Assembly: GCF_029338295.1 (NCBI RefSeq)
Contig: NZ_CP119792.1
Coordinates: 186,001 to 250,000, forward strand
Length of the DNA: 64,000 nucleotides
Direction of reading: 5' to 3'
DNA from: Haladaptatus sp. QDMS2
Lineage (GTDB): Archaea; Halobacteriota; Halobacteria; Halobacteriales; Halococcaceae
The notes under the pieces were generated by a model, which saw only the letters and a list, made by a program, of their open reading frames with translations, had not been told where the DNA came from and did not search any database. Each line of letters opens with the position of its first letter. The first letter of the stretch is position 1. Shown here piece by piece: positions 29,737 through 58,727 of this stretch. Both the position numbers and the translations under genes were made by a program.

Positions 29737-31185
29737 ATGTCCGAGTCACTGTGCTACGAGTCTGCGACACGGCTTGCAGAGCGAATTCGAACCGGCGATC
29801 TCTCACCGGTCACAGTCGTCGAAGCCCACCTGAACCGCATCGCGGACCGTGACGACGCGGTGAACGCCTTCGTGACGGTAACCGAATCCCGGGCACTGGA
29901 AGCCGCCCGTGAGGCAGAACGTGCCGTCGAAGCGGGTGAATCCCTCGGCCCGCTCCACGGAGTTCCAGTGGCGATAAAGGATTTGCAGAACGTCGGCGGC
30001 GTCCGAACCACGTTCGGGTCCCGCCTGTTCGAGGACCACGTCGCGGACGCGGACGACCCATTCGTCTCCCGGCTTCGAGAGGCGGGCGCAATCGTCATCG
30101 GGAAGACCAACACTCCGGAATTCGGCCTCGGGTGTACGACAGACAACCTCGTCGCTGGACCCACTTCGACGCCGTTCGCCCCCGGCCTGAACTCGGGGGG
30201 TTCCTCGGGCGGGGCGGGAGCGGCGCTCGCAGACGGGATGGCCCCACTCGCTCAGGGGTCTGACACGGGCGGGTCGATTCGCACGCCAGCCGCCTTCTGT
30301 GGGGTCTACGGGCTGAAACCCTCGTTCGGCCGAGTTCCCCGAGTGAGTCGGCCCGATGCATTCGAGGCCCATACGCCGTTTTCCCACGTCGGCCCGATGG
30401 CGAGAACGGTCGAAGACGCCGCGCTCATGCTCTCGGTGATGGCCGGCCCGCACCCCGAAGACCCGTTCTCGCTGCCTGACGATGGCGTCGAATACGTCGG
30501 CGCGACCGACCGCACGATCGACGACCTGTCTATCGCCTACAGCCCCGACATGGGCATCTACCCTGTCTCGCCCGAGGTGCGCGACGTCGTCGCCGAGGCG
30601 GTTTCGGTGTTCACCGAAGCGGGCGCGAACGTAGCGCAGGCGGACCCGGATTTCGACTGCGAACAGGCAGACATCCTCTCAGCGTTCTACACCTTTGCAA
30701 ACATTCGCTGGTACTCGCTGTTCGACAACTTAGAACGGGAACACGGACTGGACCCTTATGGCGAAGACCGCGAGAAACTTCGACCAATCACGGTCGAAAC
30801 CATCCTCGAAACCGACCCGGTGACGACCCGCGAGTACAAGCGGGCAGACGCGGTTCGAACGCGAATTTACGACGGTATTCAGGACCTCCTCGCGACGTAC
30901 GACCTGCTCGTGACGCCGACGCTCGCGGTCCCGCCGTTCCCCCACGGCGAGCACCCGGCGGAAATCGACGGCGTGGAGACCGAACCACTTCGGGGCTGGG
31001 TGCTCACCCAGCCGTTCAACATGTCGGGCCATCCCGCCGCCTCGATTCCCGCCGGATTCACCGACGACGGCCTCCCGGTCGGCTTGCAAATCGTCGGTAG
31101 ACGGTTTGCCGACGACGATGTCATCGCCGCGAGTGCCGCGTTCGAACGAGAACGGCCCTGGGAAAACGCCTACCCACCGCGCTGA
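29737..31185 (+). CDS. Amidase signature family hydrolase
   Basis: A protein of 482 aa from ATG 29737. Amidase-signature triad visible: K81 (AIKDLQ), cis-serine S157 (GGSSGG) and nucleophile S180 (DTGGSIRT). It hydrolyses an amide to acid plus ammonia; the substrate is unknown. GatA is unlikely because no GatB or GatC is nearby and tRNA-binding extensions are missing. It begins 62 nt after the CMD gene and precedes two sugar-acid dehydratase genes, so it may release a sugar acid from an amide (inference). Confidence 0.88.
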   Translation: MSESLCYESATRLAERIRTGDLSPVTVVEAHLNRIADRDDAVNAFVTVTESRALEAAREAERAVEAGESLGPLHGVPVAIKDLQNVGGVRTTFGSRLFEDHVADADDPFVSRLREAGAIVIGKTNTPEFGLGCTTDNLVAGPTSTPFAPGLNSGGSSGGAGAALADGMAPLAQGSDTGGSIRTPAAFCGVYGLKPSFGRVPRVSRPDAFEAHTPFSHVGPMARTVEDAALMLSVMAGPHPEDPFSLPDDGVEYVGATDRTIDDLSIAYSPDMGIYPVSPEVRDVVAEAVSVFTEAGANVAQADPDFDCEQADILSAFYTFANIRWYSLFDNLEREHGLDPYGEDREKLRPITVETILETDPVTTREYKRADAVRTRIYDGIQDLLATYDLLVTPTLAVPPFPHGEHPAEIDGVETEPLRGWVLTQPFNMSGHPAASIPAGFTDDGLPVGLQIVGRRFADDDVIAASAAFERERPWENAYPPR

Positions 31186-31232
31186 GACCGGGGCGACCGA
31201 AACGCTTTGTCGCTGCCCGAACCACGTGAGCC

Positions 31233-32324
31233 ATGGAAATCACGGACGTTCGGGTGGACACCCTGCAAGTCCCACTCGCGAACGAACTCGGTGACGCCCG
31301 CGCCTCGGTGAACGAGCGATTCTGGGTGGTCGTCGAACTGGAGACCGACACCGGCTACACTGGAACCGGGTGGCTGGGCACGTGGCGGGTGCCCGACCTG
31401 TTCGAACGCTACACACGCTCGTTCGCGGACTTGCTCGTGGGCCGAGACCCCTTCGCCACCGAATCGCTCCGGGAGGCGATGCGCGAGCGCACGCTCTACT
31501 ACCCAGGTGAGATAGGCTTCTCCGCAAATCCACGGTCGGCCATCGACGTCGCCTGCTGGGACCTCAAAGCGCAAGCGGCAGGCCGCCCGCTCTACGCGCT
31601 GCTCGGGGGCGAGGAGCGTGAGATTCCGGCCTACTGTTCGCGCCTCGACGCGGGGTACGACGAGGAAGAATTGGTGGCCAACCACGCGGAGGCAGTCGAA
31701 GACGGTTTCGACGCGGTGAAGACGAAAGTCGGGGGCAGACCGCTCACAGAGGACGTGGCGCGAGTCAGGGCACTTCGCGAGGAACTCGGCCCCGACGTGG
31801 AGATTCTCGTGGACGCGAATCAGGCGTGGACGCCCGCCGAGGCGATACGAGCGATGGCCGAACTCGAGCGTTTCGACGTCGGGTGGGTGGAGGAACCCGT
31901 CTCCGAATTCGACGTGGCTGGCTACGAGTGCGTTTCCGCCCAGGCCACCGCGCCCATTGCCACAGGAGAGATGTTCTACCGCCTCGACCGGCTGCGGCAA
32001 CTGCTCACGGCAGGGGCCGTCGATGTTGCCCAGCACGACTTGCTTCGCGGGGGTGGCATCACCGGCCAGTGGGACGCCGCCCGCCTCGCTCACGCCCACG
32101 GCGTTCCGTTCGCCCCGCACATCTACTACGAACTGTCCGCCCACCTCGTGAGCGCCGCGCCGACGGGCCGCATTGTCGAATACATCCCCGAATACGACGT
32201 TACGCCGGTTCTCGAAAACGCCCCCGAGGTCGCAGACGGCTGCGTTCACCTGCCGGACGACCCGGGCCACGGCTATCGAATCGACCCCAATGCGCGGGCG
32301 GAGTACCGCGTAACGTTCGATTGA
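31233..32324 (+). CDS. Enolase-superfamily (MR/MLE) enzyme, KxK type
   Basis: A protein of 363 aa. Mandelate-racemase-like active site: K163-T-K165, metal ligands D194 (VDANQ), E220 (WVEEP) and E246 (TGE), and the H296/D269 dyad (APHIYYE, AQHD). An N-terminal capping domain covers residues 1-115. Lys and His on opposite faces support epimerisation or dehydration of an acid sugar, with galactarate, glucarate, gluconate and fuconate dehydratases as candidates. ATG 31233 lies about 26 nt after ACGCTTTG, so leaderless. A second MR/MLE gene follows 52 bp later. Confidence 0.88.
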   Translation: MEITDVRVDTLQVPLANELGDARASVNERFWVVVELETDTGYTGTGWLGTWRVPDLFERYTRSFADLLVGRDPFATESLREAMRERTLYYPGEIGFSANPRSAIDVACWDLKAQAAGRPLYALLGGEEREIPAYCSRLDAGYDEEELVANHAEAVEDGFDAVKTKVGGRPLTEDVARVRALREELGPDVEILVDANQAWTPAEAIRAMAELERFDVGWVEEPVSEFDVAGYECVSAQATAPIATGEMFYRLDRLRQLLTAGAVDVAQHDLLRGGGITGQWDAARLAHAHGVPFAPHIYYELSAHLVSAAPTGRIVEYIPEYDVTPVLENAPEVADGCVHLPDDPGHGYRIDPNARAEYRVTFD

Positions 32325-32376: not shown

Positions 32377-33549
32377 ATGCCACCGGCTATCACGCGCATC
32401 GAGACCGTCGAGTTCACCTATCCGATAGCAAACGCCACGACGAATCCGCGCGGCTTCGACCTGGCCTACGCGGAGGGCGCGACCCACGACCGGACGACCT
32501 ACGCGCTGCGAATCGAGACGGACGCGGGAATCGCCGGCGAGTACGTCGGCGGCAATCCACCCGCCTTCGCGCAGGTGAACATGGTCGCAGACTACCTCGT
32601 CGGGAAGAATCCGCTCGCCCGCGAGAAACACTGGAGCGAACTCAAGCGAGCGTTGCGTAAGTACGACCGCATGGGAATCGGTCCGCTCGACATCGCGCTG
32701 TGGGATTTCGCGGGGAAGTACCACGACGCGCCGATCCACGAGTTACTGGGCACGTACCGCACCCGGCTTCCGGCCTACGCTTCGACGTACTTCGGGACGG
32801 AGGGCGGTGGTCTCGAATCGCCGACCGAGTACGCGGATTTCGCCGAAGCCTGCCTCGACCGCGGGTTCGGGGCGTTTAAGATTCACCCAGTCGGTGGAAT
32901 CGACGACCGCGACTTCGACCAAGAAATCGAGACGGTTCGAACCGTCGGCGAGCGCGTCGGCGACGAGATGGACCTGATGCTCGACCCGGTTTGTGAATAT
33001 GAGACGTTCGGTGACGCGCTGAAGGTGGGCAAAGCGTGCGACGAAGCAGGCTATTTCTGGTACGAAGACCCCTACCGCGACGGCAGCACCTCACAGCACG
33101 GCCACCGAAAGCTCAGAGAGGCGCTCGATACACCCCTGCTCATCACCGAGATGCTGCGCGGACTCGAATCGCACACCGATTTTGTGGCAAACGAGGCGAC
33201 CGACTTCGTCCGCGCCGACCCCGAGTGGGACGGCGGAATCACCGGCGCGATGAAGATTGCGCGCGTCGCGGAAGGCTTCGGCCTCGACGTGGAGTACCAC
33301 CTCTCCGGCCCGGCCCAGCGCCACTGCATGGCGGCGACCCGGAATTCGAACTTCTACGAACTCGGACTGGTCGGTCCCGAGGCGACGATACCACACGCAG
33401 AGGGCCCGTTCTACGCGGGTGGCTACACCGACAGCATGGACGCGGCGGACGACGGGACGTATACCGTTCCCGAGGGGCCTGGCCTCGGCGTCACCTACGA
33501 CTGGGAATACATCCGGGAGAACGCGCTCGGCGGGCGCGTCTACGAGTGA
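32377..33549 (+). CDS. Enolase-superfamily enzyme, KxH type (paralogue of 44747-45913)
   Basis: A protein of 390 aa. The second-strand motif is K168-I-H170 instead of KxK. Metal ligands D203 (MLDPVCEY), E230 (WYEDP), E258 (TEML); late-barrel residues D281/D285 (RADPEWDGG) and H308 (VEYH), with H316 in RHCMAA. The family ends in GVTYDWEYI and NALGGRVY, shared with the paralogue at 44747, as are the KNPLAREKHWSE and YDRMGIGPLDIALWDFAGKYHDAPIHELLG regions (quoted parts only). It should dehydrate an acid sugar; the substrate cannot be read. A short GGGTCG-CCC-CGACCC hairpin precedes it at 32328-32342. Confidence 0.85.
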   Translation: MPPAITRIETVEFTYPIANATTNPRGFDLAYAEGATHDRTTYALRIETDAGIAGEYVGGNPPAFAQVNMVADYLVGKNPLAREKHWSELKRALRKYDRMGIGPLDIALWDFAGKYHDAPIHELLGTYRTRLPAYASTYFGTEGGGLESPTEYADFAEACLDRGFGAFKIHPVGGIDDRDFDQEIETVRTVGERVGDEMDLMLDPVCEYETFGDALKVGKACDEAGYFWYEDPYRDGSTSQHGHRKLREALDTPLLITEMLRGLESHTDFVANEATDFVRADPEWDGGITGAMKIARVAEGFGLDVEYHLSGPAQRHCMAATRNSNFYELGLVGPEATIPHAEGPFYAGGYTDSMDAADDGTYTVPEGPGLGVTYDWEYIRENALGGRVYE

Positions 33550-33565
33550 AAAACAGGCGACCAGG

Positions 33566-35137
33566 TCAGCCTTCGATGCCGAATTCGTCCGCGCGTTTCG
33601 GCGGGGTGTCCTTGCTCAGGTCGTTTGCCTCGAGTTCAGCGTCGATGCGCACGAGTTGCGCGGCGAGGTCAGTCGCGCCGGTCCAGACGTCGCGTTTCAG
33701 GTCGGCCGGTTCCACGATGGGGTCCGATTCGAGGACGTCCCGTATCTCGCCGTAGATGCAGTCGATGCCGGTCGTCGTCCGCCCCTCGTGGGTGGCCACA
33801 CGGAGCCTGATGACGCTTCGCCAGCCGTCCATGCCGCCGTTGACCGCGAGCGAGCGAGGAATGTCCGCGAGCGCATCGCCAAACGCTTCGATGGCCAACT
33901 GCTCTGCACCGGCAACCGAGCGGGCGTGGTCGCGGACCGCTTTCGACGCGCTCATCTCGACGGCCCCGCCGCCGGCCACGACGGTTCCGGACGACTGAGC
34001 GCGGCCAACGGCTGCGAGCGCGCTCTCGACAGACCGCTCGAAGGCTGCCACCGACCGCTCGTCGGGGGCACGACAGAACAGCGTGAACACCGGGTTCGCG
34101 TCGGCTTCGACGACTATCAGGTCGCGCCCCGCTCGCCGGGTGAGGCCGACGTTCGCGGTGCCGAGCGTTTCTTCGGTCAGTTCGCCGAGGGAGGGGACGA
34201 TGGTCGCACCCGTTACCCGGGCGATTCGCGGGAGGTCTGCGTCGTCGACGCGCTGGACGGCGAGCACGCCCGCGTTCGCCAGATCGCGTTTTACGCTATC
34301 GTTGATGGCCATCCCGGTGACGATGAACTGGCAGCCAGCATCGACGGCGGCCGCCAACTGGTCACGGAAGGCCTCGCGCTCCTGGTCTGCGAACGCCGCC
34401 CGGTCCTCGAAGCCCTCAACAGAGAGCGAGAGACGAGTGTCGGTCCGGCTTCGCTCGCCGCCGTATCGCGGGATGTCTACCGTGTCAGTGAGCACCGCGA
34501 CCCCGGTGTCGTGAAGCGAGCGGGGCATCCCCTCGGCGGCCGGGTCGCGGTCGAGGACGACGCCAGCGACGAGTTCGGTCTCGGCTTCCGCACCGCCGAG
34601 CCGCGAGCTGACCTTCACCATCGATGGGTCGAACTCGCCGCCCTGGGCGACGGCATCGACCACGCGGGCGAGGTAGTTGCCGAGCTGGTGGCGGGTGTTC
34701 GGGTTGCGCGTTCCGGTGAGTGCGGTTCTCGCGACCGCTTCGACGCCGACCGTCGAAAGCGGGCGGGCCTGTTGGTCGAGGTGGTCGCAGGCGACGGTGA
34801 CCGCCTCACGGAACCCGCGTTCGATGACGGTCGGATGGAGCCCCATCTCGGAGAGCCGACTGGCTTCGTCCAGCAGCGCCCCGGTGAGCGCGACGAGCGT
34901 GCTCGCGCCGTCGCCCTCCGTTTTCCTGAAGTCGCTCGCCGCTGTTTTGAGCAGCGAGACGGCCGGATTGTCGATGTCGAGCCGGTCGAGGACGAGCGAC
35001 CCCGAGGACGTGGTCGTCACGGTTCCCTCGGCCCCGATGACCAGTTTGTTCGCGCCGAAGGGCCCGAGTGTCGTGCGAACGATGTCGCAGACGGTTCGGG
35101 CGTCGGCGGTGAGACGGTCGCGCGCGTTGTCAGCCAT
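33566..35137 (-). CDS. Divergent thermosome (group II chaperonin) paralogue
   Basis: A protein of 523 aa with the chaperonin architecture: equatorial parts (TVCDIVRTTLGPFGANKLV, near 15-33; AGGGAVEMSASK, near 370) around intermediate and apical domains. Normal thermosomes have NDGATIL and GDGTTT; here they are SSGSLVL (44-50) and EGDGAST (74-80), so nucleotide-handling residues are altered though the catalytic Asp of GDG remains. The C-terminus lacks the GGM repeats. It is bracketed by sugar-acid genes and has its own start next to a TATA-like element at 35163-35170. A specialised or regulatory chaperonin subunit is possible; whether it still folds proteins is unclear. Confidence 0.85.
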   Translation of the reverse strand: MADNARDRLTADARTVCDIVRTTLGPFGANKLVIGAEGTVTTTSSGSLVLDRLDIDNPAVSLLKTAASDFRKTEGDGASTLVALTGALLDEASRLSEMGLHPTVIERGFREAVTVACDHLDQQARPLSTVGVEAVARTALTGTRNPNTRHQLGNYLARVVDAVAQGGEFDPSMVKVSSRLGGAEAETELVAGVVLDRDPAAEGMPRSLHDTGVAVLTDTVDIPRYGGERSRTDTRLSLSVEGFEDRAAFADQEREAFRDQLAAAVDAGCQFIVTGMAINDSVKRDLANAGVLAVQRVDDADLPRIARVTGATIVPSLGELTEETLGTANVGLTRRAGRDLIVVEADANPVFTLFCRAPDERSVAAFERSVESALAAVGRAQSSGTVVAGGGAVEMSASKAVRDHARSVAGAEQLAIEAFGDALADIPRSLAVNGGMDGWRSVIRLRVATHEGRTTTGIDCIYGEIRDVLESDPIVEPADLKRDVWTGATDLAAQLVRIDAELEANDLSKDTPPKRADEFGIEG

Positions 35138-35312: not shown

Positions 35313-36299
35313 ATGGGCACGTACACAATCGTCTTCACGGACCACTCGTTCGAGGACCTCTCGGTCGAACGGTCGGTGCTCGGCGACGACGCGGACTTCC
35401 ACGTTCTCTCAGAAGAAGCGGACGTGAACGCCCTCGCCGACCTCGACGAGGCGGATCGAGACCTGCTCGCTAACGCCGACGCCGTCGTCAACCTCGTCGC
35501 CGAGGTGGACGCCGAAATAATCGCCGAACTGTCGCAGTGTCAGGTCATCTCCCGGTACGGTATCGGCGTAGACAACATCGACCTGGCCGCCGCGACAGAG
35601 CGGGGAATCTACGTGACAAACGTCCCCTCCTACTGCGTCGAGGAGGTTTCGACGCACGCTCTCGCGCTCATTCTCGCGCTGGCCAGACGGCTAAAACCCT
35701 ACGACGAATCGCTCGCCTCGGGAGGGTGGAAGGCCGAACGCGCCCCGCCGATCACCCACCGATTCTCCTCCCAGACGGTCGGCGTCGTCGGATACGGGCA
35801 ACTCGGGCGGCGCGTTGGCGAGAAGGCAGCGGCGCTTGGCGCGACCGTTCTGGCCGCGGACCCGTACCTCGAACCCGGCGACCTCGCGGAGGACGACGCG
35901 TCACTGGTCGAATTCGACGAAGTGGTCGCGAAAGCTGACTTCCTTACCGTGCACACGCCGCTCACCCCCGAAACCCGTGGCCTCATCGACGCCGACGTTT
36001 TCTCCCGGATGAAGTCGTCCGCCCACGTCGTGAACGTCGCCCGCGGCGGCATCGTAGACGAGGACGCACTCGAAGCGGCACTCTCGACGGGGCAGATTGC
36101 CGGGGCCGGCCTCGACGTGTTCGAGACCGAACCTCCCGCGACAGGGAACCCGCTCCGAGGGCACCCACAGGTCATCGCCACCCCGCACCAGGCGTGGTAC
36201 TCGGCTGAGGCAGACCGAGAGCGACGCGAAGTGGTCGCGAAAACGGTGCTGACCGCCCTTCGCGGGTCGCGACCCTCGAACGCGGTCAACGACCCCTGA
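35313..36299 (+). CDS. CtBP-like D-2-hydroxyacid dehydrogenase
   Basis: A protein of 328 aa. GYGQLG NAD motif, catalytic R in NVARGGIVD, E in FETEPPA, H in TPHQAWYS. GIGVDNIDLAAATERG and NVPSYCVEEVSTHA show it belongs with the enzyme at 14402-15418 and animal CtBP-like dehydrogenases. It is followed by a DHDPS-type aldolase in the same direction and shares the divergent region with the thermosome paralogue. Likely a sugar-acid or 2-hydroxyacid oxidoreductase. Confidence 0.9.
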   Translation: MGTYTIVFTDHSFEDLSVERSVLGDDADFHVLSEEADVNALADLDEADRDLLANADAVVNLVAEVDAEIIAELSQCQVISRYGIGVDNIDLAAATERGIYVTNVPSYCVEEVSTHALALILALARRLKPYDESLASGGWKAERAPPITHRFSSQTVGVVGYGQLGRRVGEKAAALGATVLAADPYLEPGDLAEDDASLVEFDEVVAKADFLTVHTPLTPETRGLIDADVFSRMKSSAHVVNVARGGIVDEDALEAALSTGQIAGAGLDVFETEPPATGNPLRGHPQVIATPHQAWYSAEADRERREVVAKTVLTALRGSRPSNAVNDP

Positions 36300-36357: not shown

Positions 36358-37248
36358 ATGCGAATTTATGGCATGATTCCGCCGATGCTCACGCCAACGC
36401 TGGACCGCGACGGCGGCATCGACGTGGCGGCACTCAGTTCGTTCACCGAATTTCTCGTTGCCGGCGGTGTCCACGGACTGTTTCCGTGTGGCTCTATCGG
36501 CGAGTTCTCCAGCCTCACGCGCGACGAGCGCCGAACCGTGGTCAAAACGGTGGTCGAGGCATCGGGGGACACCCCCGTCATTGCCGGGTGCGGCGGGACG
36601 AGTCTCGCCGGCGTCATCGCGAACGTGGACGCCGCCGCGGACGCCGGGGCCGACGCCGCCGTCGTCGTCACTCCCTACTACCTCTCGACGACACAGGAGG
36701 GCCTTGCGGAGTTCTTTACGCTCGTCGCAGACCGCTCGCCGCTCCCCATCGTACTCTACAACATTCCGCAACTCACCGGGCAAGAAATCGCCGTGGAGAC
36801 GGTAACCGAACTCGCGGCTCACGACTCAATTGTCGCAATCAAGGATTCGTCAGGGAACGCAACCTACCACTACGAACTCGTAGAGATGACACCCGACGAG
36901 TTCTCGGTCATTCAGGGAATCACGGCGCTCGCGCTCTCCTCGCTCGACGCCGGTGCAGACGGCGTCATCGGCGGCCCCGCGAACGTGTTTCCGGGGTTGC
37001 TCGCAGAACTGTACGACGCCTACGAACGCGGCGACCGCGACCGAGCAGTTACCCTCATGAACGACGTGGTGAATCCACTCGTAAGTACCTACGCGTCGCT
37101 TCCCACTCCTGTTGCGATAAAGTTCCTCGCCCGGTGGGGTGGTCACGAGGTCGGCCCGCCACTGGTTCCGCTGTCCGGACTCACCCGAAATCAGGAACAG
37201 CGACTGGTCGATGCGTACGAGACGGTCGAATCGCGCGTGAACCGGTAA
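36358..37248 (+). CDS. DHDPS/KDG aldolase-family protein
   Basis: A protein of 296 aa of the DapA/NAL/KdgA superfamily. Schiff-base K162 (VAIKDSSGN), Y134 (IVLYNIPQ), and the carboxylate loop GSIGEFSSLT (45-54). YNIP and KDSSGN are closer to the family consensus than in the other aldolase at 17217. It sits between a 2-hydroxyacid dehydrogenase and a XacD-like dehydratase, so 2-keto-3-deoxy-pentonate or -hexonate aldolase is a reasonable role; dihydrodipicolinate synthase cannot be excluded. Confidence 0.88.
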   Translation: MRIYGMIPPMLTPTLDRDGGIDVAALSSFTEFLVAGGVHGLFPCGSIGEFSSLTRDERRTVVKTVVEASGDTPVIAGCGGTSLAGVIANVDAAADAGADAAVVVTPYYLSTTQEGLAEFFTLVADRSPLPIVLYNIPQLTGQEIAVETVTELAAHDSIVAIKDSSGNATYHYELVEMTPDEFSVIQGITALALSSLDAGADGVIGGPANVFPGLLAELYDAYERGDRDRAVTLMNDVVNPLVSTYASLPTPVAIKFLARWGGHEVGPPLVPLSGLTRNQEQRLVDAYETVESRVNR

Positions 37249-37316: not shown

Positions 37317-37328
37317 ATGACTGCATGA
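37317..37328 (+). promoter_or_regulatory. Three-codon upstream ORF overlapping the next start by ATGA
   Basis: ATG-ACT-GCA-TGA begins about 24 nt after the TATA-like TTTATC at 37291 and its stop overlaps ATG 37325. If transcription starts at this ATG, as is usual in haloarchaea, the dehydratase start would be reached by termination-reinitiation. Confidence 0.35.
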
Positions 37329-38587
37329 TTGACGAACCAGACTATCGTATCCCACCCGGCGGTGGCGTTCCGTGGCGCGACCTGAGCGTTGACGAAGCAC
37401 ACCGTCCGGCCGAACGCGACATCGAGATTACCAACATCGAGACGATGGCCCTCGCGGGCAACTTCACGTGGGGAATCGTCAAGGTAGAGACGAACACCGA
37501 ACACTACGGCATCGGCGAGACGTTCCGTGCAGAGGCCGCCCTCGACATGGCCGAGCGACTCATCGTGGACCTCGAAGGCGAGAATCCCCTCGACATCGAC
37601 CGACTGGTCGAACTGTTGAACCAGCGATACACCGGTTGTGGCCGCATCGGCCAGTCGGCGTTCACCGGAATCGAGACTGCCCTCTGGGACATCAAGGGGA
37701 AGATCCTCGGCGTTCCTGTCTACGAACTGCTCGGCGGAAAGTACCGCGACCGCATCAAAATCTACTGTGACACCCACGGTGGCGAATCCCTCGGCGAGGC
37801 GGCCCACCGCGACCCGAAAGACGTGTACACACCAGAATCTTACGCGCAGGCCGCTCGCGAGGTGGTCGACGACGGATTCGAGGCGCTCAAATTCGACCTC
37901 GACGTGCCAACGCGTCGTGACGTCGATACCGCCGCACGTCGCCTCGACAACGAGGCCATCGACCACAAAGTGTCGCTCGTCGAGGCCGTTCGCGACGAAA
38001 TCGGCTCCGACATCGACCTCGGGATGGACCTCCACTGGAACTTCACGCTGGAGACCGCTCGCCGACTCGGGAGGAAACTCGAACGGTACGACCTGGCGTG
38101 GCTCGAAGACCCCGTTCCCCCGGGGCAAATCGAGAACCACGCGCTGCTCACACAGGAACTCGACGTGCCGATTCTGACGGGGGAGAACGTCGTCACCGCG
38201 GATGGATTCGACGAACTCGCGCGGGCCGGCGCGATGAACATCGCCGCCCCCGACGTTTCGAAGTGTGGTGGCCTCTGGGAACTCCGAAAAATCGCCTTCG
38301 TCTGTGACCTCCACGGCATCCCGATGGCGACACACAACATCGCGAGTCCCGTCGGAACCGTCGCCGGGGCACACTTCAGTGCGGCAATCCCCAACTTCCT
38401 CGCGATGGAGTACCATGCCCGCGACGTGCCGTGGTGGAACGACCTCGTGGTCAGAACCGCCTCACCAAACGACCCGGTTCTCGAAGCCGGATATGTCGAC
38501 CTCCCGGAGGGACCGGGACTCGGCATCGAGATCGATCCGTCCGTGGCGGAGACCTACCTCACCGACGGTTCGGAACTCATCGTCTGA
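37325..38587 (+). CDS. Enolase-superfamily sugar-acid dehydratase, XacD-like (xylonate/arabinonate type)
   Basis: A protein of 420 aa with a 30-residue N-terminal extension. Motifs: K189-F-D191, D235-L-H237-W (GMDLHW), E261 (LEDPVPP), E287 (TGENV) and H337 (ATHNIASPVG). The DxHW, WLEDPVPP and HN-SPIGT-type blocks match haloarchaeal XacD (D-xylonate/L-arabinonate dehydratase), although GGESLGEA and a different lid suggest another substrate. It would make a 2-keto-3-deoxy acid for the adjacent aldolase at 36358. ABC transporter genes follow. Confidence 0.87.
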   Translation: MIDEPDYRIPPGGGVPWRDLSVDEAHRPAERDIEITNIETMALAGNFTWGIVKVETNTEHYGIGETFRAEAALDMAERLIVDLEGENPLDIDRLVELLNQRYTGCGRIGQSAFTGIETALWDIKGKILGVPVYELLGGKYRDRIKIYCDTHGGESLGEAAHRDPKDVYTPESYAQAAREVVDDGFEALKFDLDVPTRRDVDTAARRLDNEAIDHKVSLVEAVRDEIGSDIDLGMDLHWNFTLETARRLGRKLERYDLAWLEDPVPPGQIENHALLTQELDVPILTGENVVTADGFDELARAGAMNIAAPDVSKCGGLWELRKIAFVCDLHGIPMATHNIASPVGTVAGAHFSAAIPNFLAMEYHARDVPWWNDLVVRTASPNDPVLEAGYVDLPEGPGLGIEIDPSVAETYLTDGSELIV

Positions 38588-40255: not shown

Positions 40256-40265
40256 ACCGGTACAC

Positions 40266-40463: not shown

Positions 40464-40464
40464 C

Positions 40465-41412: not shown

Positions 41413-41414
41413 CC

Positions 41415-51113: not shown

Positions 51114-52217
51114 ATGGAAATCACGGAAATCGAGACGTTTGCCGTCTCTATCCCCTTAGAAGAGCCGGTGGCATTCGCCACACGCGTCGTCGAAGAGCGG
51201 GACCACGCAATCGTGTACGTCAGAACCGCAGACGGAACGGAAGGTCTCGGCTACTCCCTCGGCTACGGCGGGGCACAGCTCATCGCAGACGCTGCCTCGG
51301 ACGTCCTCGGCCCGATGATAATGGGCGAAGACCCGCGAGATACGGAACGCCTCTGGCGGGAGATGTTCGATGGGACGGTCCAGATTGGCCGGAAAGGCGT
51401 GATGCTGCGGGCCATTTCGTGTATCGACATCGCCCTCTGGGATATCAAGGCGAAGGCGGCGGGGATGCCGCTGTACAAACTGCTCGGCGGGAGCAAGGAG
51501 AAGATTCCCGCGTACGCGAGCGGCGGGTACTACCGCGAGACGAAGGGACTGGACGGCCTCCGCGAGGAGATGGAAACCTACGTCGACCGCGGGCACGACG
51601 TGGTGAAGATGAAAGTAGGCCGCGAATCGCTGGCCGACGAGGTAGAGCGCGTGCGAACGGTTCGGGAGGCAATCGGCCCTCATCGAACGCTGCTCATGGA
51701 CGCGAACGGCAAGTGGCAGAACAAACAGGAGGCGGTGCGCGCCTGCCGCGCCTTCGCCGAATTCGACCCGTACTTCATCGAGGAACCGGTGATGCCAGAC
51801 AGCATCGACCTGATGAGCGAGGTGAACGACGCGCTCCCGTATCCGGTCGCCGCGGGTGAACTCGAGTTCAATCGCTACGGCTTCGAGCATCTGATGGACT
51901 CGGGAGCGGTCGAAATCGTCCAGCCTGACGTGAGCGTCGTCGGCGGCGTCACAGAGTGGCTTCGCGTCGCCCACGCCGCCGCTGCCCGTGACATTCCAGT
52001 GGCTCCCCACTACAACTGGGACCTCCACGTTCACCTGCTTGGGGCCATCGAAAACGGCCTGTGGGCCGAGTTCTTCTACCGCGACTCGGACGTGAAGGCG
52101 TTCGACGACGTGCTCGTCCACCCGATGGAGGCGAAAAACGGGATGCTCGAAATACCGGACCGCAACGGTCACGGCGTCGAACTCGACCACGAGGCGCTCG
52201 AACGGTTCCGTATCTGA
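51114..52217 (+). CDS. Enolase-superfamily (MR/MLE) enzyme, KxK type
   Basis: A protein of 367 aa from ATG 51114 (an in-frame ATG 51099 adds five residues). K165-M-K167, D196 (MDANGKW), E222-E223 (FIEEP), E249 (AGELE), D272 (QPDVS) and H299 (APHYNWD). A mandelate-racemase-like site with both bases. The Trp-rich YNWDLHVHLL after the His and the VEFFYRDS-like end suggest a distinct substrate from the KxK protein at 31233. Precedes the XacD-like gene at 52279 with an inverted repeat between. Confidence 0.87.
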   Translation: MEITEIETFAVSIPLEEPVAFATRVVEERDHAIVYVRTADGTEGLGYSLGYGGAQLIADAASDVLGPMIMGEDPRDTERLWREMFDGTVQIGRKGVMLRAISCIDIALWDIKAKAAGMPLYKLLGGSKEKIPAYASGGYYRETKGLDGLREEMETYVDRGHDVVKMKVGRESLADEVERVRTVREAIGPHRTLLMDANGKWQNKQEAVRACRAFAEFDPYFIEEPVMPDSIDLMSEVNDALPYPVAAGELEFNRYGFEHLMDSGAVEIVQPDVSVVGGVTEWLRVAHAAAARDIPVAPHYNWDLHVHLLGAIENGLWAEFFYRDSDVKAFDDVLVHPMEAKNGMLEIPDRNGHGVELDHEALERFRI

Positions 52218-52278: not shown

Positions 52279-53499
52279 ATGCGAGACTTTTCCAACCACG
52301 CGACCAACCGCGGAGCGGGACGCGACGTGAAGATTACGGACATCGAGACGTGCATCGTGAAAGGCAACTTCGAGTGGAACCTCGTGAAGGTACACACCGA
52401 TGCCGGCGTGACCGGCATCGGCGAATCCTACCGCGGCGGTGGGGTCCCCGAGATAATGGAGTACATGAAGCGATTTCTCATCGGGGAGAACCCACTCGAC
52501 GTCGAACGACTGTTCCGACGGATGGTCCAGGAAACCTCGGGACACAGCGGGACGACCGGCAAAGTCGTGACCGCCGCCACCGGCATCGAAATCGCCCTCT
52601 GGGACATCGCCGGAAAGGTCCTCGGCGTGCCAGTCTACCAGTTGCTGGGCGGGAAATACCGTGACGAGGTGCGCATCTACTGTGACTGTCACGCAGGCGA
52701 GGCGTTCGCCCTCGAACACGGCTACCACTCGCCCGCCTCAGACGACGCCTACTCGGTCGAAGCCTACGCTCAAGAGGCTGGTCGCGTCGTCGACATGGGC
52801 TTCTCTGCGCTCAAGTTCGACTTAGACCAGCCGTTCGACAACCACCCCGATCCGTACAACGGACGGGTGAGCAACGCCGCTATCGAGCGCAAACGAGAGA
52901 CCGTCGAAGCCATCCGCGACGAAATCGGCTACGACATCGACCTCGCGTTCGACATCCACTGGGACTACTCGATGGACAGCGCAAAACGTATCTGCCAGAA
53001 GTTAGAGCCATACGACCTGATGTGGCTCGAAGACCCGGTTCCGCCGGAGAACATGGAAGCCCAGCGCGAGATTACGCGCTTCTCTCGGGTGCCGATTGCG
53101 ACGGGTGAAAATCGCTTCCGCGTCCACGAGTTCAAGCATCTGCTCTACGACTTCGGCGTCGACATCATCACGCCCGATCCATCCACCTGTGGCGGCCTCG
53201 CGGAGTCGAAGGCAATCGCCAATCGCGCAGAGGAGAATTACATCGCGTTCTCGCCGCACAACGTCTGTAGTCCCATCGGGACGATGGCGTGCGTCCACCT
53301 CGGCGCGAGCGTGCCGAACTTCGACGTACTCGAATACCACGCTCTCGAAGTGGACTGGTGGGACGACCTGCTCGTCCGTGAGGAACCGCTCATTCAGGAC
53401 GGCTACATCGAGGTGCCAGAGACGCCCGGCCTCGGCATCGAACTCGACGACGAGGTGGCACAGGAACACCTCCTCGACCCCGGCACGATGTACGCCTGA
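52279..53499 (+). CDS. Enolase-superfamily sugar-acid dehydratase, XacD-like
   Basis: A protein of 406 aa. K179-F-D, D225-I-H227-W (FDIHW), E251 (LEDPVPP), E277 (TGENR) and H327 (SPHNVCSPIG). Strong overall match to my memory of haloarchaeal XacD: VKITDIET, VGENPLD-like, LLGGKYRDEVRIYCDCH, EYHALEVDWWDDL. It should dehydrate D-xylonate or L-arabinonate to 2-keto-3-deoxypentonate. The GH51 gene converges on it one base away, so arabinose-derived L-arabinonate is an attractive substrate (inference). Confidence 0.87.
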   Translation: MRDFSNHATNRGAGRDVKITDIETCIVKGNFEWNLVKVHTDAGVTGIGESYRGGGVPEIMEYMKRFLIGENPLDVERLFRRMVQETSGHSGTTGKVVTAATGIEIALWDIAGKVLGVPVYQLLGGKYRDEVRIYCDCHAGEAFALEHGYHSPASDDAYSVEAYAQEAGRVVDMGFSALKFDLDQPFDNHPDPYNGRVSNAAIERKRETVEAIRDEIGYDIDLAFDIHWDYSMDSAKRICQKLEPYDLMWLEDPVPPENMEAQREITRFSRVPIATGENRFRVHEFKHLLYDFGVDIITPDPSTCGGLAESKAIANRAEENYIAFSPHNVCSPIGTMACVHLGASVPNFDVLEYHALEVDWWDDLLVREEPLIQDGYIEVPETPGLGIELDDEVAQEHLLDPGTMYA

Positions 53500-53500
53500 T

Positions 53501-55024
53501 TCAGCCCTCGAATTGAATTCCGACGACCGACGACGCCGGCGCGTCCACGCCGACGCGTCCGTCTGCTTCTATGGTTACGTCGAGCAACTCCGATTCGAAC
53601 GCCGCGGCGTTCGCCGCCGTCGTGTGCGCCGCTGGCGCGTGACCCTCGAAGAGAACCCTCGCCTCGACACCGGTCTGTTCTCCATTCCCGTCCATCGCAA
53701 TCTGGACTGTACGCTCGTCAAGGTCGCGATTGCTGAGGGTGAGGAACACCCCGGACTCGTCGCGGGAGGCGGACGCACTTACCAGTGCCACCTCGGTTGT
53801 CTCGTCGCCGTCGACGACGGAGCGCGACGCGGTCTCCACGTCGGTTCGAAGCGCTTTCGAGCCCATATGAGGACGGTAGAGGTCGAACACTCGGTAGGTC
53901 GGCGTCGCCCACGCCGACTCCTCGTCGGTCTGAACCATACACTGGAGCACGTTTATCGTCTGTGCGATGTTCGCCATCGAGACCACATCCGCCCGATCGT
54001 TGAGCATGTCCAGAACGCCCGCCGCGGTGAGTGCGTCGCGGACCGTCTGTTCCTGTTCGAGACCGTTTGCTGGGGTCGCCTGCGGATGCCAGACTCCCCA
54101 CTCGTCTACAATGATGCCGACCGACTCGTCGGGGACGAACGACGAGAGTACCGCCGCTGCGCGGTCGACGTCGTCAGCAACGGCCTTCGCTCTCGCGAAA
54201 AGTCGGAAGTACTGTTCGTCGGTGAAGTCGGTGTCTTCGCCAGCTTCGTAGTACCGGTGGACGGAGATGTGGTCGAGCAGTTCGTACCCACCGATGTCGG
54301 CGATCGCCCCGCTCTCGCCCAGCGTCTGCATGAACTGTCGGTTCCAGTCTGGGTCGTTGTCGCCGCAGGCGACGAGTTCGAGCGACCGTTCGCCGAGCAC
54401 CCGTTCGAACGCCCGCAGGTAGTTCGCGAACCGACGGTACTCCTGAGCGTAGGTATCCGGGTCGTACCGACCACCACAACCCCAGTTCTCGTTACCGACG
54501 CCCCAGTACCTGACGTCGTGGGGTTCCTCGTGACCATTTTTGACTCGTTTTCGTGCATACTCGGTGTCGCCGTCGTGGTTGCAGTACTCTACCCAATCGA
54601 CTGCCTCGCCAGGAGACCCCGAGCCGACGTTCGCGGCGAGGTAGGGTTCCGCCCCGACGGTGCGACAGACACGGAGGAATTCCTCGGTTCCGAAGGCATT
54701 CGACTCCTCCCAGCTGTCGTCGCGCCCCTGCGCCCACCAGAGACTTCGGCGACGCGGGCGCTCCTCCCGCGGACCGATGCCGTCCTCCCAGTGGTAGTCG
54801 TCTGCGAAACACCCGCCTGGCCAGCGCAATACTGGCGGGTCGAGAGAAGAGAGAAGCGAGAGCGTGTCGGCGCGAACGCCGTCAATCGTCTCTACGTTCT
54901 CATCGTCACCTACCCAGAGGCCGCCGTAGATGCAGCGACCGAGGTGCTCCGCGAAATGACCGTAAATCTCTGGGGCGATGCGGCTGATAGGCGTTGCTGT
55001 CCGCACGCGAATCGTATCTGTCAT
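53501..55024 (-). CDS. Alpha-L-arabinofuranosidase, GH51
   Basis: A protein of 507 aa, the usual GH51 length. Acid/base E179 in VGNENWGCGG and nucleophile E308 in VDEWGVW; RWPGGCFADDYHWEDGIGP (67-85) and the C-terminal beta-sandwich are also typical. It cleaves terminal alpha-L-arabinofuranosyl groups from arabinan, arabinoxylan or pectin fragments. There is no signal peptide, so it works on imported oligosaccharides. Last gene of a minus-strand group with three MR/MLE genes. Confidence 0.93.
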   Translation of the reverse strand: MTDTIRVRTATPISRIAPEIYGHFAEHLGRCIYGGLWVGDDENVETIDGVRADTLSLLSSLDPPVLRWPGGCFADDYHWEDGIGPREERPRRRSLWWAQGRDDSWEESNAFGTEEFLRVCRTVGAEPYLAANVGSGSPGEAVDWVEYCNHDGDTEYARKRVKNGHEEPHDVRYWGVGNENWGCGGRYDPDTYAQEYRRFANYLRAFERVLGERSLELVACGDNDPDWNRQFMQTLGESGAIADIGGYELLDHISVHRYYEAGEDTDFTDEQYFRLFARAKAVADDVDRAAAVLSSFVPDESVGIIVDEWGVWHPQATPANGLEQEQTVRDALTAAGVLDMLNDRADVVSMANIAQTINVLQCMVQTDEESAWATPTYRVFDLYRPHMGSKALRTDVETASRSVVDGDETTEVALVSASASRDESGVFLTLSNRDLDERTVQIAMDGNGEQTGVEARVLFEGHAPAAHTTAANAAAFESELLDVTIEADGRVGVDAPASSVVGIQFEG

Positions 55025-55103: not shown

Positions 55104-56237
55104 CTATTCCGTGCGAAACCGTTCGACTGCGTCCTCGTTCACCGAGACGCCGAGCCCCGGCCCCTGCGGGACGGCGAGCGACCCGCCGGTCGGGTCGAGC
55201 GGCGCGTCGAGGAGTTCGTCGCGCAGCGGGTTCTGGCTCCGGTCGAACTCGAACAGCAACGGTTCTGGCACGTTTTCGTTGTGTGGATAGGACGGCAAAC
55301 TCGCGGCGAACTGAAGGGCGGCGGCCACGCCGACGGCCCCGTTCCAGACGTGCGGGTACACGGCAACGTTCTCGGTGGTGGCCCACTTCGCCAGGAATCG
55401 CGACTCTGAAAAGCCGCCGGCACGCCCGAGGTCTGGCTGGATGATGTCCACACCGTGGTCGGCGATGAGGCGTTTGTAGTCGAACCGGCCGAAGTGCGAT
55501 TCGCCCGTGGCGACGGGCACGTCCACCCGGTCGGTGAGTTTCCGGAGGCCCGTGTAGTCCTCGGGCGGCACCGGCTCCTCTATCCACGTGAGGTCGTAGG
55601 GTTCGAGGGCGTTCGCGGACTGAATGGCTTGTTTGAGCCGATAATTGCCGTTGTAATCGACCATCAGGTGGGCGTCGTCACCGAGGAGTTCTCTGGCCGT
55701 CGCCACCCGCTCGACGTCGTCTTCGACGCTGCGGCCGATTTTGAGTTTCGCAGCCGTGAACCCCTCTTCGACGGCGCGTTCGATTGGTTCCGCCGGGTCC
55801 TCGCCCCACTCGGTAATGTACATCGTCGAGGCGTAGGGTGTCACCGCCTCGGTCTGCTGGCCACCGAGCAATCGGTAGATGGGTTCGCCCGTCGCCTTGC
55901 CGATGAGGTCCCAGAGCGCGATGTCCACCGCGCTCACCGCGCTCTGGAGGATGGGGCCGCCACCCAGATTGTAGGCCTCCTGGTGGGTTCGCTCGGTAAG
56001 GGTTTCGACCTCGTATGGACTCGCGCCTTCGACCATCGGTGCGAGAACTTCTTCGACGGCCGTCGCGGTCGTCTGTGGCGGAGCCAGCGCCTCGCCGTAG
56101 CCCACTTCGCCGGTCGTCGTTTCGACGCGGACGAGCATCGCGCTTCGCGTGTCCATGACGCCGCGGGCGTGACCGAAGGCACGTCCGTCTTCGAGGGGAT
56201 ACGAAAGCGGTATTGCCGCTACTGAATCGACTTGCAT
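55104..56237 (-). CDS. Enolase-superfamily (MR/MLE) enzyme, KxK type
   Basis: A protein of 377 aa. K164-L-K166, D194 (VDYNGNY), E220 (WIEEP), E246 (TGESH), D269 (QPDLGRAGG) and H296 (YPHVWNG). MR-type dyad complete, so epimerase or acid-sugar dehydratase. The YPHVWN block occurs in sugar-acid dehydratases and cycloisomerases such as galactarolactone cycloisomerase. Middle of a run of three MR/MLE genes, 79 bp before GH51. Confidence 0.87.
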   Translation of the reverse strand: MQVDSVAAIPLSYPLEDGRAFGHARGVMDTRSAMLVRVETTTGEVGYGEALAPPQTTATAVEEVLAPMVEGASPYEVETLTERTHQEAYNLGGGPILQSAVSAVDIALWDLIGKATGEPIYRLLGGQQTEAVTPYASTMYITEWGEDPAEPIERAVEEGFTAAKLKIGRSVEDDVERVATARELLGDDAHLMVDYNGNYRLKQAIQSANALEPYDLTWIEEPVPPEDYTGLRKLTDRVDVPVATGESHFGRFDYKRLIADHGVDIIQPDLGRAGGFSESRFLAKWATTENVAVYPHVWNGAVGVAAALQFAASLPSYPHNENVPEPLLFEFDRSQNPLRDELLDAPLDPTGGSLAVPQGPGLGVSVNEDAVERFRTE

Positions 56238-56287: not shown

Positions 56288-57502
56288 TTACGCGTCGAGG
56301 AATTCGGTCCAGGGGCCGTCGATGTGTGGGTACTCCTCGACCACGTCGAGGTTGACCGTGACGCCGAGGCCCGGGCCGTCGGGGAGCGAGAAGTGACCGC
56401 CCTCGATTCCGAGGTCCTCCTGAATGATGTCCTCGGCGAGGGGGAACGGGTACATCCCGGCCACGTCGTCGCCGAAGACGGGGTATTCGAGCGGTTCGGC
56501 CATGGGAATCGCGGCGGCGAGGTGGGCGTTCGCCACGAGGCCGAGGTGCGTCCCGAAGTTGTGCGGGAGAAAGGTCACGTCACGGTCTCGGCACGCTTCG
56601 ACGACTTCCCAGCAACCGGTAAAGCCGCGGTGGTGGCGAACGTCTCCCTGCAGGAAGCCAACGGCATCGGTGTCTGCGAGGGCCAGCAACCCCTCGGGAG
56701 ATTCCTCGCTCTCGCCACCCGCGAGGGGAACGTCAACTTGGGCGGCAAGCCTGCGGTAGGCGTCGTAGTCGGCGGGGGGAACGGGTTCTTCGAGCCAATA
56801 CGGGTCGAATGCCTCCATCTCGCGGACGAGCGAGACTAGTTCGTCGAACGAGTAGGACGCATCGCCGAGTTTCCACCAGGTGTGGGCGTCCACCATGATT
56901 TCCACGTCGTCGCCGACTGCCTCCCGGATGAGTTCGATGGTTCGCAGGTCCTCGTCGTATCCGAGACCGGGGCGATACTTATACCCGCGAAAGCCGCGGT
57001 CTGCGATTGCGCGGGCCTGTTTTGCATAGCCCTCCGGTGGCATGTACATCCCGGCGCTCGCATACAAGGGAAGTTCCGTGCGGACGTCGCCGTCCGCGAG
57101 CAGGTCGTAAATCGGCGCACCTTGTCGCTTGCCGAGGATGTCGTGGTACGCGATGTCGACGGCGGAAATCGCCTGCGATTCGAGCATCTCGGGGAGGTCG
57201 AGGTCTTCGATTCGCGCTCGAACGTCGGCGGGGCCGGAGAGCGGGCCCTCGGTCAGCGCGGGGGCGACCATGTCTTCGAGGACGCCCGCGAAGTCGCTGT
57301 GGGAGGCTCCTTCGAAGTATTCACGCATCGCCGAACTCGTCGCGCCACCCGTCGCGACGCCGCGCTCTCCGTCTGCGGTTTCGACGACGACGAGGACCAC
57401 GTCGCGCTTCAGCAGGCGGCGAACCCCACCGGCGTAGTGGCGGTCCTGGGGCGGGTCGATGGGCGAGGAGAGATTGTACGCACTAATCGTATCGAGTTGC
57501 AT
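56288..57502 (-). CDS. Enolase-superfamily enzyme, KxR / DxH type
   Basis: A protein of 404 aa. K175-Y-R177, D205-A-H207 (VDAHTWW), E238 (WLEEP), E264 (GGESEE), D287 (QGDVRH) and H314 (LPHNFGTHLG). The second-strand Lys-x-Arg and the extra His after the first metal ligand differ from the KxK proteins. The first domain has a long GASHSDFAGVLEDM segment. Substrate unknown; an acid sugar is likely. 50 bp before 55104-56237 in the same direction. Confidence 0.85.
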   Translation of the reverse strand: MQLDTISAYNLSSPIDPPQDRHYAGGVRRLLKRDVVLVVVETADGERGVATGGATSSAMREYFEGASHSDFAGVLEDMVAPALTEGPLSGPADVRARIEDLDLPEMLESQAISAVDIAYHDILGKRQGAPIYDLLADGDVRTELPLYASAGMYMPPEGYAKQARAIADRGFRGYKYRPGLGYDEDLRTIELIREAVGDDVEIMVDAHTWWKLGDASYSFDELVSLVREMEAFDPYWLEEPVPPADYDAYRRLAAQVDVPLAGGESEESPEGLLALADTDAVGFLQGDVRHHRGFTGCWEVVEACRDRDVTFLPHNFGTHLGLVANAHLAAAIPMAEPLEYPVFGDDVAGMYPFPLAEDIIQEDLGIEGGHFSLPDGPGLGVTVNLDVVEEYPHIDGPWTEFLDA

Positions 57503-57560
57503 GCGAGAGAGTCACTGACACGTGAGTACAAAGAACTGCCGCTTTCGGTAACTATCCTGC

Positions 57561-58727
57561 TCAGAAGACGTATTCCGGACCTTCTTCGTACTCGAAACGG
57601 TCCATGAGGTCCTCCCGGAGCGTAAAGCCGAGGCCGGGTTCGTCGGGGGCGTAAACGCGCCCGTCGCGGATGTCGAACGACTCCTCGAAGAGGTCGGTCA
57701 TGAGCGGCATGTGGGCCTGCCCGACTTCGAGGATGTGGCAGTTGGGAATCGCCATGGCGAGGTGGATGCTCGCGGCGACGAGGACGCCGCTCCCCCAGGC
57801 GTGGGGGGCGACCCGGAGACCGTGCGCGGAGGCGAGCGCCGCGATGCGCTTGATTTCCGTGATGCCACCCGCCCGCGAAACGTCCGGCTGGGCGATGTCC
57901 GTCGCGCCCTGTGCAAAGAGGCTCTGGAAGTCAAAGCGCGTCCACTCGCGCTCGCCAGTTGCAATGGGGATGGTCGTGGCCCGGCGCACTTCCGCGAGGC
58001 CGGCGTGGTCGTCGGGCGAAATCGGCTCTTCGAACCACGCGAGGTCATAGGGTTCGAGCCGGTCGGCGAGGCGAATAGCGGTCGAAACGTCGAGCGACCC
58101 GTGGGCGTCAATCATCAGCTCCACGTCGTCGCCGATGCCCCGCCGGGCGGCCTCGACCCGGCGGACGGTGTTCTCGATGGAGAAACCGTCCTTTCCGACC
58201 ACGCGCATCTTCACGGCGTCGAACCCCTGGTCTGCGTAGCCGCGCATCTCGGCTTCCGCTTCCTCGCCGGGTGCCCAGCCACCGCTCGCGTAGCCTCGGA
58301 TGGAGTCACGCACCCCGCCGAGCAAGCGGTAGATGGGCTGGTCGAGTGCCTTTCCCTTCAGGTCCCAGAGGGCGATGTCGAGCCCCGAAATCGCTTCGAG
58401 CGTGAGTCCCCGGCGGTCCTCACGTGGTTGAGAGTACCCGCGTTCGAGCGACGGTTTCCATCGCGACCCGTTGTACAGCTTTTCCCACAGGCGTTCTGTG
58501 TAAAGCGGGTCTTCGCCCTTCAGCAGCGGCGCGAGTTCGTGTTCGACGATGGACTGAATCGTCGGCGGATTGCCGAGTGACGCACCGACGCCCCGGTGGC
58601 CGTCGTCCGTCTCCACGAAAACGAGCGTCGTGTCGGTTTTGACCTTCGTCCCGAGGTCGGTTCGGTGACGTTTTTCCTCCGGAATCCGGTTCGACAGCGG
58701 AACCGCTCGTACGTCAGTGATTCGCAT
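57561..58727 (-). CDS. Enolase-superfamily enzyme, KxR / DxH type
   Basis: A protein of 388 aa from ATG 58727. K173-M-R175, D207-A-H209 (IDAHG), E233 (FEEP), E259 (TGER), D282 (QPDVSRAGG) and H309 (APHAWG). The DAHG block and a 20-residue insert (SLERGYSQPREDRRGLTL region) occur in D-galactonate/L-talarate-like dehydratases. It heads the MR/MLE, MR/MLE, MR/MLE, GH51 group. Related to 56288 in its Lys-x-Arg motif but not a close copy. Confidence 0.86.
   Translation of the reverse strand: MRITDVRAVPLSNRIPEEKRHRTDLGTKVKTDTTLVFVETDDGHRGVGASLGNPPTIQSIVEHELAPLLKGEDPLYTERLWEKLYNGSRWKPSLERGYSQPREDRRGLTLEAISGLDIALWDLKGKALDQPIYRLLGGVRDSIRGYASGGWAPGEEAEAEMRGYADQGFDAVKMRVVGKDGFSIENTVRRVEAARRGIGDDVELMIDAHGSLDVSTAIRLADRLEPYDLAWFEEPISPDDHAGLAEVRRATTIPIATGEREWTRFDFQSLFAQGATDIAQPDVSRAGGITEIKRIAALASAHGLRVAPHAWGSGVLVAASIHLAMAIPNCHILEVGQAHMPLMTDLFEESFDIRDGRVYAPDEPGLGFTLREDLMDRFEYEEGPEYVF

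Follow-up and report, generated by a model that had tools for sequence, protein, structure and literature searches.

Nine enolase-superfamily genes in a probable plasmid-borne sugar-acid catabolic island of Haladaptatus sp. QDMS2

The window analyzed here is a stretch of 64,000 nucleotides from the 3.88-Mb genome of Haladaptatus sp. QDMS2 (contig C2, positions 186001-250000), located on a plasmid of about 0.6 Mb, and it carries nine genes of the mandelate racemase/muconate lactonizing enzyme (MR/MLE) type within 27.5 kb. This enolase cluster is real, dense and diverse, and it is a new, large form of a known sugar-acid catabolic island. The nine genes probably belong to a plasmid-borne acid-sugar catabolic supercluster of about 90-100 kb that is built around a co-inherited nucleus. 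The island's most conserved nucleus is a chaperonin pair, a transporter and two protein families without a Pfam match, not the enolases. An earlier sequence-only reading of this DNA had noticed the nine genes and proposed an organism able to use many acid-sugar stereoisomers, perhaps from pectin or hemicellulose. Its observation is confirmed and its interpretation partly supported; it overlooked this nucleus and the fact that the island is a shared plasmid segment.

All nine open reading frames are intact at the coordinates given below, with complete catalytic residues. RefSeq gene starts on the plasmid NZ_CP119783.1 agree with those of the sequence-only reading, including 51114, 44747-45913 and 57561-58727, and the products are annotated there as 'mandelate racemase/muconate lactonizing enzyme family' or 'enolase C-terminal domain-like'. 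The Pfam domain MR_MLE_C spans the whole barrel above its cut-off in every protein (144-259 bits). When all MR/MLE proteins of the genome were aligned with those of related islands and with eight solved structures, the catalytic Lys, the three acidic metal ligands, the Asp-His dyad and the Glu of the last strand (strand 8) proved to be kept in 9/9. The same alignment agrees with the four second-strand motif types read earlier, namely KxK (31233, 51114 and 55104), KxH (32377 and 44747), KxD with DxHW (37325 and 52279) and KxR with DxH (56288 and 57561).

The KxK/DxN genes are E1 (31233-32324, forward strand), E5 (51114-52217, forward) and E7 (55104-56237, reverse). E1 has an orthologue of 71% identity in Halomarina sp. 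BND7, and its best solved relative, about 30% identical, is the 3,6-anhydro-L-galactonate cycloisomerase 5xd7. E5 has relatives of 84% and 79% identity in two other haloarchaeal loci and is nearest to 5olc, while E7, a candidate galactaro/glucarolactone cycloisomerase, has 4ggb as its best PDB match (37% identity, with 34% to 5olc) yet stands apart from 4ggb in the tree. For neither E5 nor E7 was a reciprocal-best orthologue found in Halomarina sp. BND7. The KxH genes E2 (32377-33549, forward) and E4 (44747-45913, reverse) are 74% identical to each other and have Halomarina orthologues of 74% and 80%, respectively, E2 being nearest to the solved structures 1rvk and 4hcd. The KxD/DxHW genes E3 (37325-38587, forward; Halomarina orthologue 81%) and E6 (52279-53499, forward; 89%) are both nearest to 2qq6, for which no function is stated. 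Of the KxR/DxH type are E8 (56288-57502, reverse; 78%), nearest to 5olc, and E9 (57561-58727, reverse; 82%), nearest to 3bjs and 3ozm. We take 4ggb, which its PDB file calls a 'putative uncharacterized protein', to be the Agrobacterium galactarolactone cycloisomerase, and 5olc, a 'galactonate dehydratase' in its file, is presumably an anhydrogalactonate cycloisomerase.

By single linkage at 40-50% identity the nine proteins fall into seven families, with no more than 37% identity between families; the only close pairs are 32377/44747 and 37325/52279 (48%). The tree is consistent with seven groups, though its deep forks are weak. Because of this spread over seven families, recent tandem duplication is ruled out as the origin of the nine genes, and, judged by sequence, they do not collapse into one or two known isofunctional groups. 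The proteins were scored against the NCBIfam equivalogs for galactonate, gluconate/galactonate, arabinonate, mannonate, rhamnonate, talarate/galactarate and glucarate dehydratases. The best score was 251 of 650 bits (E5, arabinonate) and the closest approach to a cut-off was 236 of 311 (E6, galactonate), so that assignment by equivalogs was rejected. Several substrates are probably unassigned, as had been anticipated. The diversity is as unusual as the sequence-only reading had proposed. Its further suggestion that many stereoisomers are used is plausible, though unproven; the two related pairs reduce the likely number of substrates, and nine genes need not mean nine substrates. Elsewhere in the genome, the galactonate dehydratase gene dgoD forms a separate locus (C2:496560, 667 bits over a cut-off of 311), and three enolase-like genes encoding proteins of about 400-420 amino acids (C1:801022, C2:95015 and C2:256248, the last annotated as eno) match the MR/MLE profile weakly.

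Genome-wide, 32 matches to PF13378 were found, of which 27 remain at E<=1e-20 after one duplicate from an apparent contig overlap was dropped. At 27 genes in 3.88 Mb, about 0.2 would be expected by chance per 27.5 kb, versus nine observed, and two Haladaptatus congeners have only two such genes each at the same threshold (three each at E<=0.001). Across 195 haloarchaeal genomes, a part of GTDB, up to 14 candidates were scored per genome and the richest genomes were then rescored; with its 27 genes QDMS2 ranks third, behind 31 in a fragmented metagenome-assembled genome (G015) and 30 in a 7.3-Mb genome (G189), and ahead of totals of 25, 21, 20, 20, 19 and fewer. Genome-wide abundance is therefore near the top and not unique. 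Density was compared on the matches listed from MR-rich genomes, and among the clusters checked no other reaches nine per 27.5 kb; the next are seven in Halomarina sp. BND7 and six on a contig of a metagenome-assembled genome, both in homologous islands, and elsewhere at most five were listed. The claim of an unusual density accordingly stands. The accompanying statement that known haloarchaeal loci carry one or two such dehydratases understates the norm, since several haloarchaea have three to five such genes clustered in 27.5 kb.

The region compared is 99.9-100% identical to circular plasmids of Haladaptatus sp. YSMS36 (NZ_CP119783.1) and DYSN1. RefSeq annotation of the near-identical plasmid extends the island from about 15,500 to 106,000 in window coordinates, which is some 40-45 kb beyond the window, and its 14 MR/MLE genes, five of them outside the window, are spread over 70 kb. 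The GC content of the island (63.6%) falls within that of chromosomal stretches (62-65%) and is uninformative about a foreign origin. In Halomarina sp. BND7, which NCBI places in another family than Haladaptatus, at least 39 of the island's proteins have plasmid-encoded reciprocal-best orthologues (47-89% identity), and 12 of the 14 MR/MLE proteins are among them. Seven of the nine window MR/MLE proteins are 71-89% identical to their Halomarina counterparts and gene order is conserved over long stretches, one of which runs E6, hypA, hypB, D-2-hydroxyacid dehydrogenase, DUF362, SDR (short-chain dehydrogenase/reductase), cupin, E4, importer, E3, DHDPS, C-terminal binding protein type dehydrogenase and TCP1a.

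The nucleus was sought in 382 haloarchaeal genomes and in a collection of 72,556 plasmids. Within the window it comprises TCP1a (33566-35137, reverse; PF00118, 355 bits), a divergent group II chaperonin predicted to be ATPase-dead, hypB (49731-50018, forward; 95 amino acids) and hypA (50019-51062, forward), encoding a membrane protein of 347 amino acids with three predicted transmembrane helices; TCP1b is the second chaperonin. Neither hypA nor hypB has a relevant Pfam match or a Foldseek match in the PDB at E<=0.001, and one hypA orthologue gives a sub-cut-off Rce1-like match (14.2 of 22.4 bits). In the predicted structure of hypA (mean pLDDT 87), the three membrane helices are joined by an alpha/beta domain and by a C-terminal domain made of helices; hypB is predicted to be a small mixed fold (pLDDT 86). 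The gene hypA, which lies among the enolase genes and had no annotation, occurs in 16 of the 382 genomes, representing 11 genera of four families, and a separate search for TCP1a at a strict cut-off recovered the identical 16. Ignoring phylogeny, independent placement would produce this co-occurrence with a probability of about 1e-28, a figure that is overstated because the genomes are related. In 15 of these genomes the two are on a single contig and within some 22 kb of each other, and the sixteenth is a fragmented metagenome-assembled genome. Among the plasmids, TCP1a-clade, TCP1b-clade, hypA and hypB genes are found in the same five, although the plasmid and genome counts are not fully independent because some species are in both sets.

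Around hypA in other genomes, 15 loci were fetched. All contain hypB, 11 contain the importer ATPase and permeases, ten have TCP1a inside the fetched 20 kb and seven have the tartrate dehydrogenase-like gene. MR/MLE genes lie near some of these loci and are absent from the fetched 20 kb in others, so that the enolases are variable cargo around the nucleus. The TCP1a and TCP1b clades are each about 52-53% identical internally, 28% to one another and about 30% to the chromosomal thermosomes, three proteins that share 48-60% identity among themselves. Two Asp residues serve the ATPase of thermosomes. In TCP1a, Ser replaces the Asp of the NDG motif in 14/14 clade members and the second catalytic Asp is missing in 13/14; in TCP1b, the NDG Asp is present in 8/8 and the second Asp in 6/8 (Asn in two), with an altered flanking motif. 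The terms tried in literature searches found no papers on plasmid-borne or ATPase-dead haloarchaeal chaperonins. After removal of duplicates, the genome retains about eight genes for TCP-1 chaperonins, of which three are chromosomal and five are divided between the other two contigs; sites are 33566-35137 in the window, C2:252531, C2:325189 and C3:19394-22649, and the ATPase motifs are altered at C2:325189 and C3:19394 as well. On contig C3 (330,897 bases; GC 54%, below the rest), MR/MLE, chaperonin and GH88 matches recur about 304,945 bases apart, so that this contig probably represents a circular plasmid of some 305 kb from which a 26-kb overlap was not trimmed.

Comparison of loci suggests a role for E7. 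Its reciprocal-best orthologues (57-60%) in Haloterrigena turkmenica, Haladaptatus pallidirubidus and Halopiger have an NAD(P)-dependent oxidoreductase gene and a DHDPS-type gene nearby, and the Haloterrigena and Halopiger loci additionally contain pectinesterase, rhamnogalacturonan acetylesterase or pectate lyase genes. Both partner types have reciprocal-best homologues in the window. One is an extended SDR protein and candidate uronate dehydrogenase (18231-19055, forward; 67% to the H. turkmenica locus; Azf model, 213 of 400 bits), and the other is a DHDPS-family, 5-dehydro-4-deoxyglucarate dehydratase-like protein (17217-18134, reverse; 57% to the H. turkmenica and Halopiger loci; PRK03620, 161 of 278 bits). 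In Agrobacterium, galacturonate and glucuronate are oxidized by a pathway of Udh, Gli, Gci, KdgD and KGSADH (PMC6353982), and the context of the E7 loci in H. turkmenica, Halopiger and Haladaptatus matches this pathway. E7 is a candidate Gci whose orthologue context fits an oxidative uronate locus; as a Gci it would turn galactaro- or glucaro-1,4-lactone into 3-deoxy-2-keto-hexarate. A module for free uronates is plausible in this genome. Several loci of Haloferax, Natrialba and Haloterrigena have E8-type genes close to their E7 orthologues.

The neighbours listed by the sequence-only reading, two DHDPS-type genes (17217 and 36358), a CUT1 transporter, a GH51 gene and dehydrogenases, are all present, and this gene context supports its view of a sugar-acid catabolic island. 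The CUT1 ABC importer (38744-43548, forward; RefSeq) consists of a binding protein, two permeases and a UgpC-type ATPase, and is followed by a tartrate dehydrogenase-like gene (43648-44703, forward) that passes TIGR02089 marginally (471.4 bits vs a cut-off of 470.4). Adjoining E3 is a DHDPS-family lyase (36358-37248, forward; dapA model, 193 of 206 bits; Halomarina orthologue 66%), next to a 2-hydroxyacid dehydrogenase of the C-terminal binding protein type (35313-36299, forward; PF02826/PF00389). The other dehydrogenases and reductases are an SDR protein of the sugar/polyol dehydrogenase type (46382-47170, reverse; PF13561; Halomarina orthologue 76%), a D-2-hydroxyacid dehydrogenase (48673-49647, forward; RefSeq, NCBIfam below cut-off) and a GarR-type, tartronate semialdehyde reductase-like protein (19120-20019, forward; PRK11559, 317 of 397 bits; TIGR01505, 316 of 341 bits). 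Also encoded are a thiamine pyrophosphate-dependent protein of the acetolactate synthase/carboligase type (15507-17183, forward; acetolactate synthase models all below cut-off) and a GH51 alpha-L-arabinofuranosidase (53501-55024, reverse; PF06964 and PF22848). The 2,5-dioxovalerate dehydrogenase of the island exceeds its equivalog cut-off (820 over 750). A LarA/DUF362-like protein (47241-48533, reverse; PF09861, 23.4 vs a cut-off of 23.3 bits) has a second relative beyond the window (L129:20481-21824). Both are possible nickel-pincer-type hydroxyacid epimerases, which would broaden the range of stereoisomers.

Farther along the near-identical plasmid, outside the window, the genes annotated by RefSeq include an aldehyde ferredoxin oxidoreductase, LUD proteins, UxaA genes and ilvC- and ilvD-like genes, besides the second chaperonin and another CUT1 importer. 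An APH-type kinase accompanies an enolase paralogue there, and PdxA accompanies a four-carbon acid sugar kinase. The phosphopyruvate hydratase paralogue (465 over 300 bits) adjoins the APH-family kinase (L129:35204-37497), and the arrangement is conserved in Halomarina. This pair is possibly a branch from glycerate to phosphoenolpyruvate (PEP), and its presence would be explained if aldarates were converted via tartronate semialdehyde and glycerate to PEP. A dihydroxy-acid dehydratase paralogue lies at L129:1124-2848 and a ketol-acid reductoisomerase paralogue, kept in the Halomarina island at 77% identity, at L129:33717-34745. For the latter, a role as apionate oxidoisomerase was considered, on which a literature search found nothing.

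Taken as a pathway, the island would work as follows, its substrates, direction of flux and chaperonin role being predictions from gene content, residues, synteny and co-occurrence. Sugars and sugar acids would be taken up by the CUT1 ABC importers and oxidized by SDR-type dehydrogenases. The seven enolase-superfamily families, each for a different configuration, would then remove the proton adjacent to the carboxylate and either eliminate water or open a lactone, yielding 2-keto-3-deoxy acids. DHDPS and HpcH family lyases, together with 2-oxoglutarate semialdehyde dehydrogenase, would convert the products into 2-oxoglutarate, pyruvate and PEP, probably with a glycerate branch formed by the tartronate semialdehyde reductase, the APH-type kinase and the plasmid enolase. 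E7 with the genes at 18231 and 17217 would constitute an oxidative uronate module. TCP1a, TCP1b, hypA and hypB, usually accompanied by a CUT1 importer, may form a dedicated device that folds or assembles either the importer or the enzymes of the island.

Several observations weigh against this scheme. None of the nine proteins (0/9) reaches an equivalog cut-off, and their identity to the eight aligned solved references, which do not include 1rvk and 2qq6, is at most 39%, too low for transferring substrates from PDB relatives. Most of the auxiliary enzymes, among them the GarL-like aldolase, the GarR-like reductase and the KdgD-like DHDPS proteins, are also below their equivalog cut-offs. E7 is about 36 kb away from its presumed partner genes, a racemase or epimerase function is possible for some of the MR/MLE proteins, and only linkage and residue loss point to a chaperonin role. 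A plasmid that merely gathers metabolic genes by transfer and recombination, with many of the nine redundant or unused, would account for the plasmid location, the patchy distribution, the scarcity of MR/MLE genes in the two congeners and extra paralogues such as 32377/44747. Nevertheless, frameshifts and lost catalytic residues are absent from all nine, the pathway context is intact, and the gene order and identity shared with Halomarina by seven of them make such passive accumulation unlikely. Still less credit is given to a single polysaccharide, a pectin- or algal-type uronan, behind all nine genes, each acting at a different step or on a different monomer. The pectin genes beside E7/E8 orthologues in Haloterrigena and Halopiger, the GH51 gene of the island and the distant similarity of E1, E5 and E7 to anhydrogalactonate or galactarolactone cycloisomerases would fit it. 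The genome, however, contains no PL1 pectate lyase and no GH28 gene, the two families searched, and its only GH88-type locus is on another replicon; pectin is therefore rejected as source polymer. Growth on pectin, raised by the sequence-only reading, is not supported either, given the lack of PL1 and GH28 and the failure of haloarchaea whose pectinase sets are far richer to grow on this polymer (PMC9726719).

With regard to the nucleus alone, it may be unrelated to sugar metabolism, serving for instance in stress protection or as an inter-microbial system, and may hitchhike on the same plasmids, a doubtful explanation that is compatible with the supercluster reading of the enolases. The lack of a recognizable family for hypA and hypB, the lost ATPase residues of TCP1a and the occurrence at loci without MR/MLE genes in the fetched 20 kb agree with hitchhiking, whereas the same type of CUT1 importer clusters with the nucleus in 11/15 loci of several families, often with the tartrate dehydrogenase-like gene. 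No more than tentatively, we propose that two divergent chaperonin subunits, one ATPase-dead and one ATPase-competent, form a dedicated complex with hypA and hypB on which the sugar-acid importer and its catabolic enzymes depend for assembly or function, in an undescribed archaeal system spread by plasmids with exchangeable enolase cargo. If so, chaperonins, one subunit of them without ATPase residues, would act within an accessory metabolic system rather than in housekeeping. The chaperonin-hypA-hypB set is the part that deserves laboratory work most. In addition, the island offers a ready panel of sugar-acid enzymes that belong to none of the curated isofunctional groups and for which the conserved context narrows the substrates.

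Among known systems, the Halomarina island (NZ_CP100455.1, 25-120 kb) shares the 12 of 14 MR/MLE genes, both chaperonins, hypA/hypB, eno, the APH kinase, ilvC and transporters, but it lacks E5 and E7 orthologues, has rearranged blocks and contains dgoD, mannonate dehydratase and alpha-ketoacid dehydrogenase genes. TCP1a and TCP1b resemble haloarchaeal thermosomes in matching PF00118 over nearly full length and differ from them in forming two separate clades, with TCP1a lacking the ATPase residues. E7 is closest in the PDB to 4ggb, which we take to be a Gci, in likeness to the oxidative pathway of Agrobacterium. With that pathway (PMC6353982) QDMS2 further shares a candidate Udh, a KdgD-like DHDPS protein and 2,5-dioxovalerate dehydrogenase; the genes of QDMS2, however, are spread over about 80 kb, no Gli was identified and E7 is only 37% identical to 4ggb. 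Finally, the xylose, arabinose and galactose loci of Haloferax volcanii (non-phosphorylative pentose and DeLey-Doudoroff pathways) likewise combine enolase-type dehydratases with CUT1 uptake and IclR regulators, and their dehydratases feed 2-oxoglutarate semialdehyde or 2-keto-3-deoxy acids. In contrast to these loci, QDMS2 assembles 14 MR/MLE genes in one island, the nine in the window miss every equivalog cut-off, and dgoD is kept at a separate locus.

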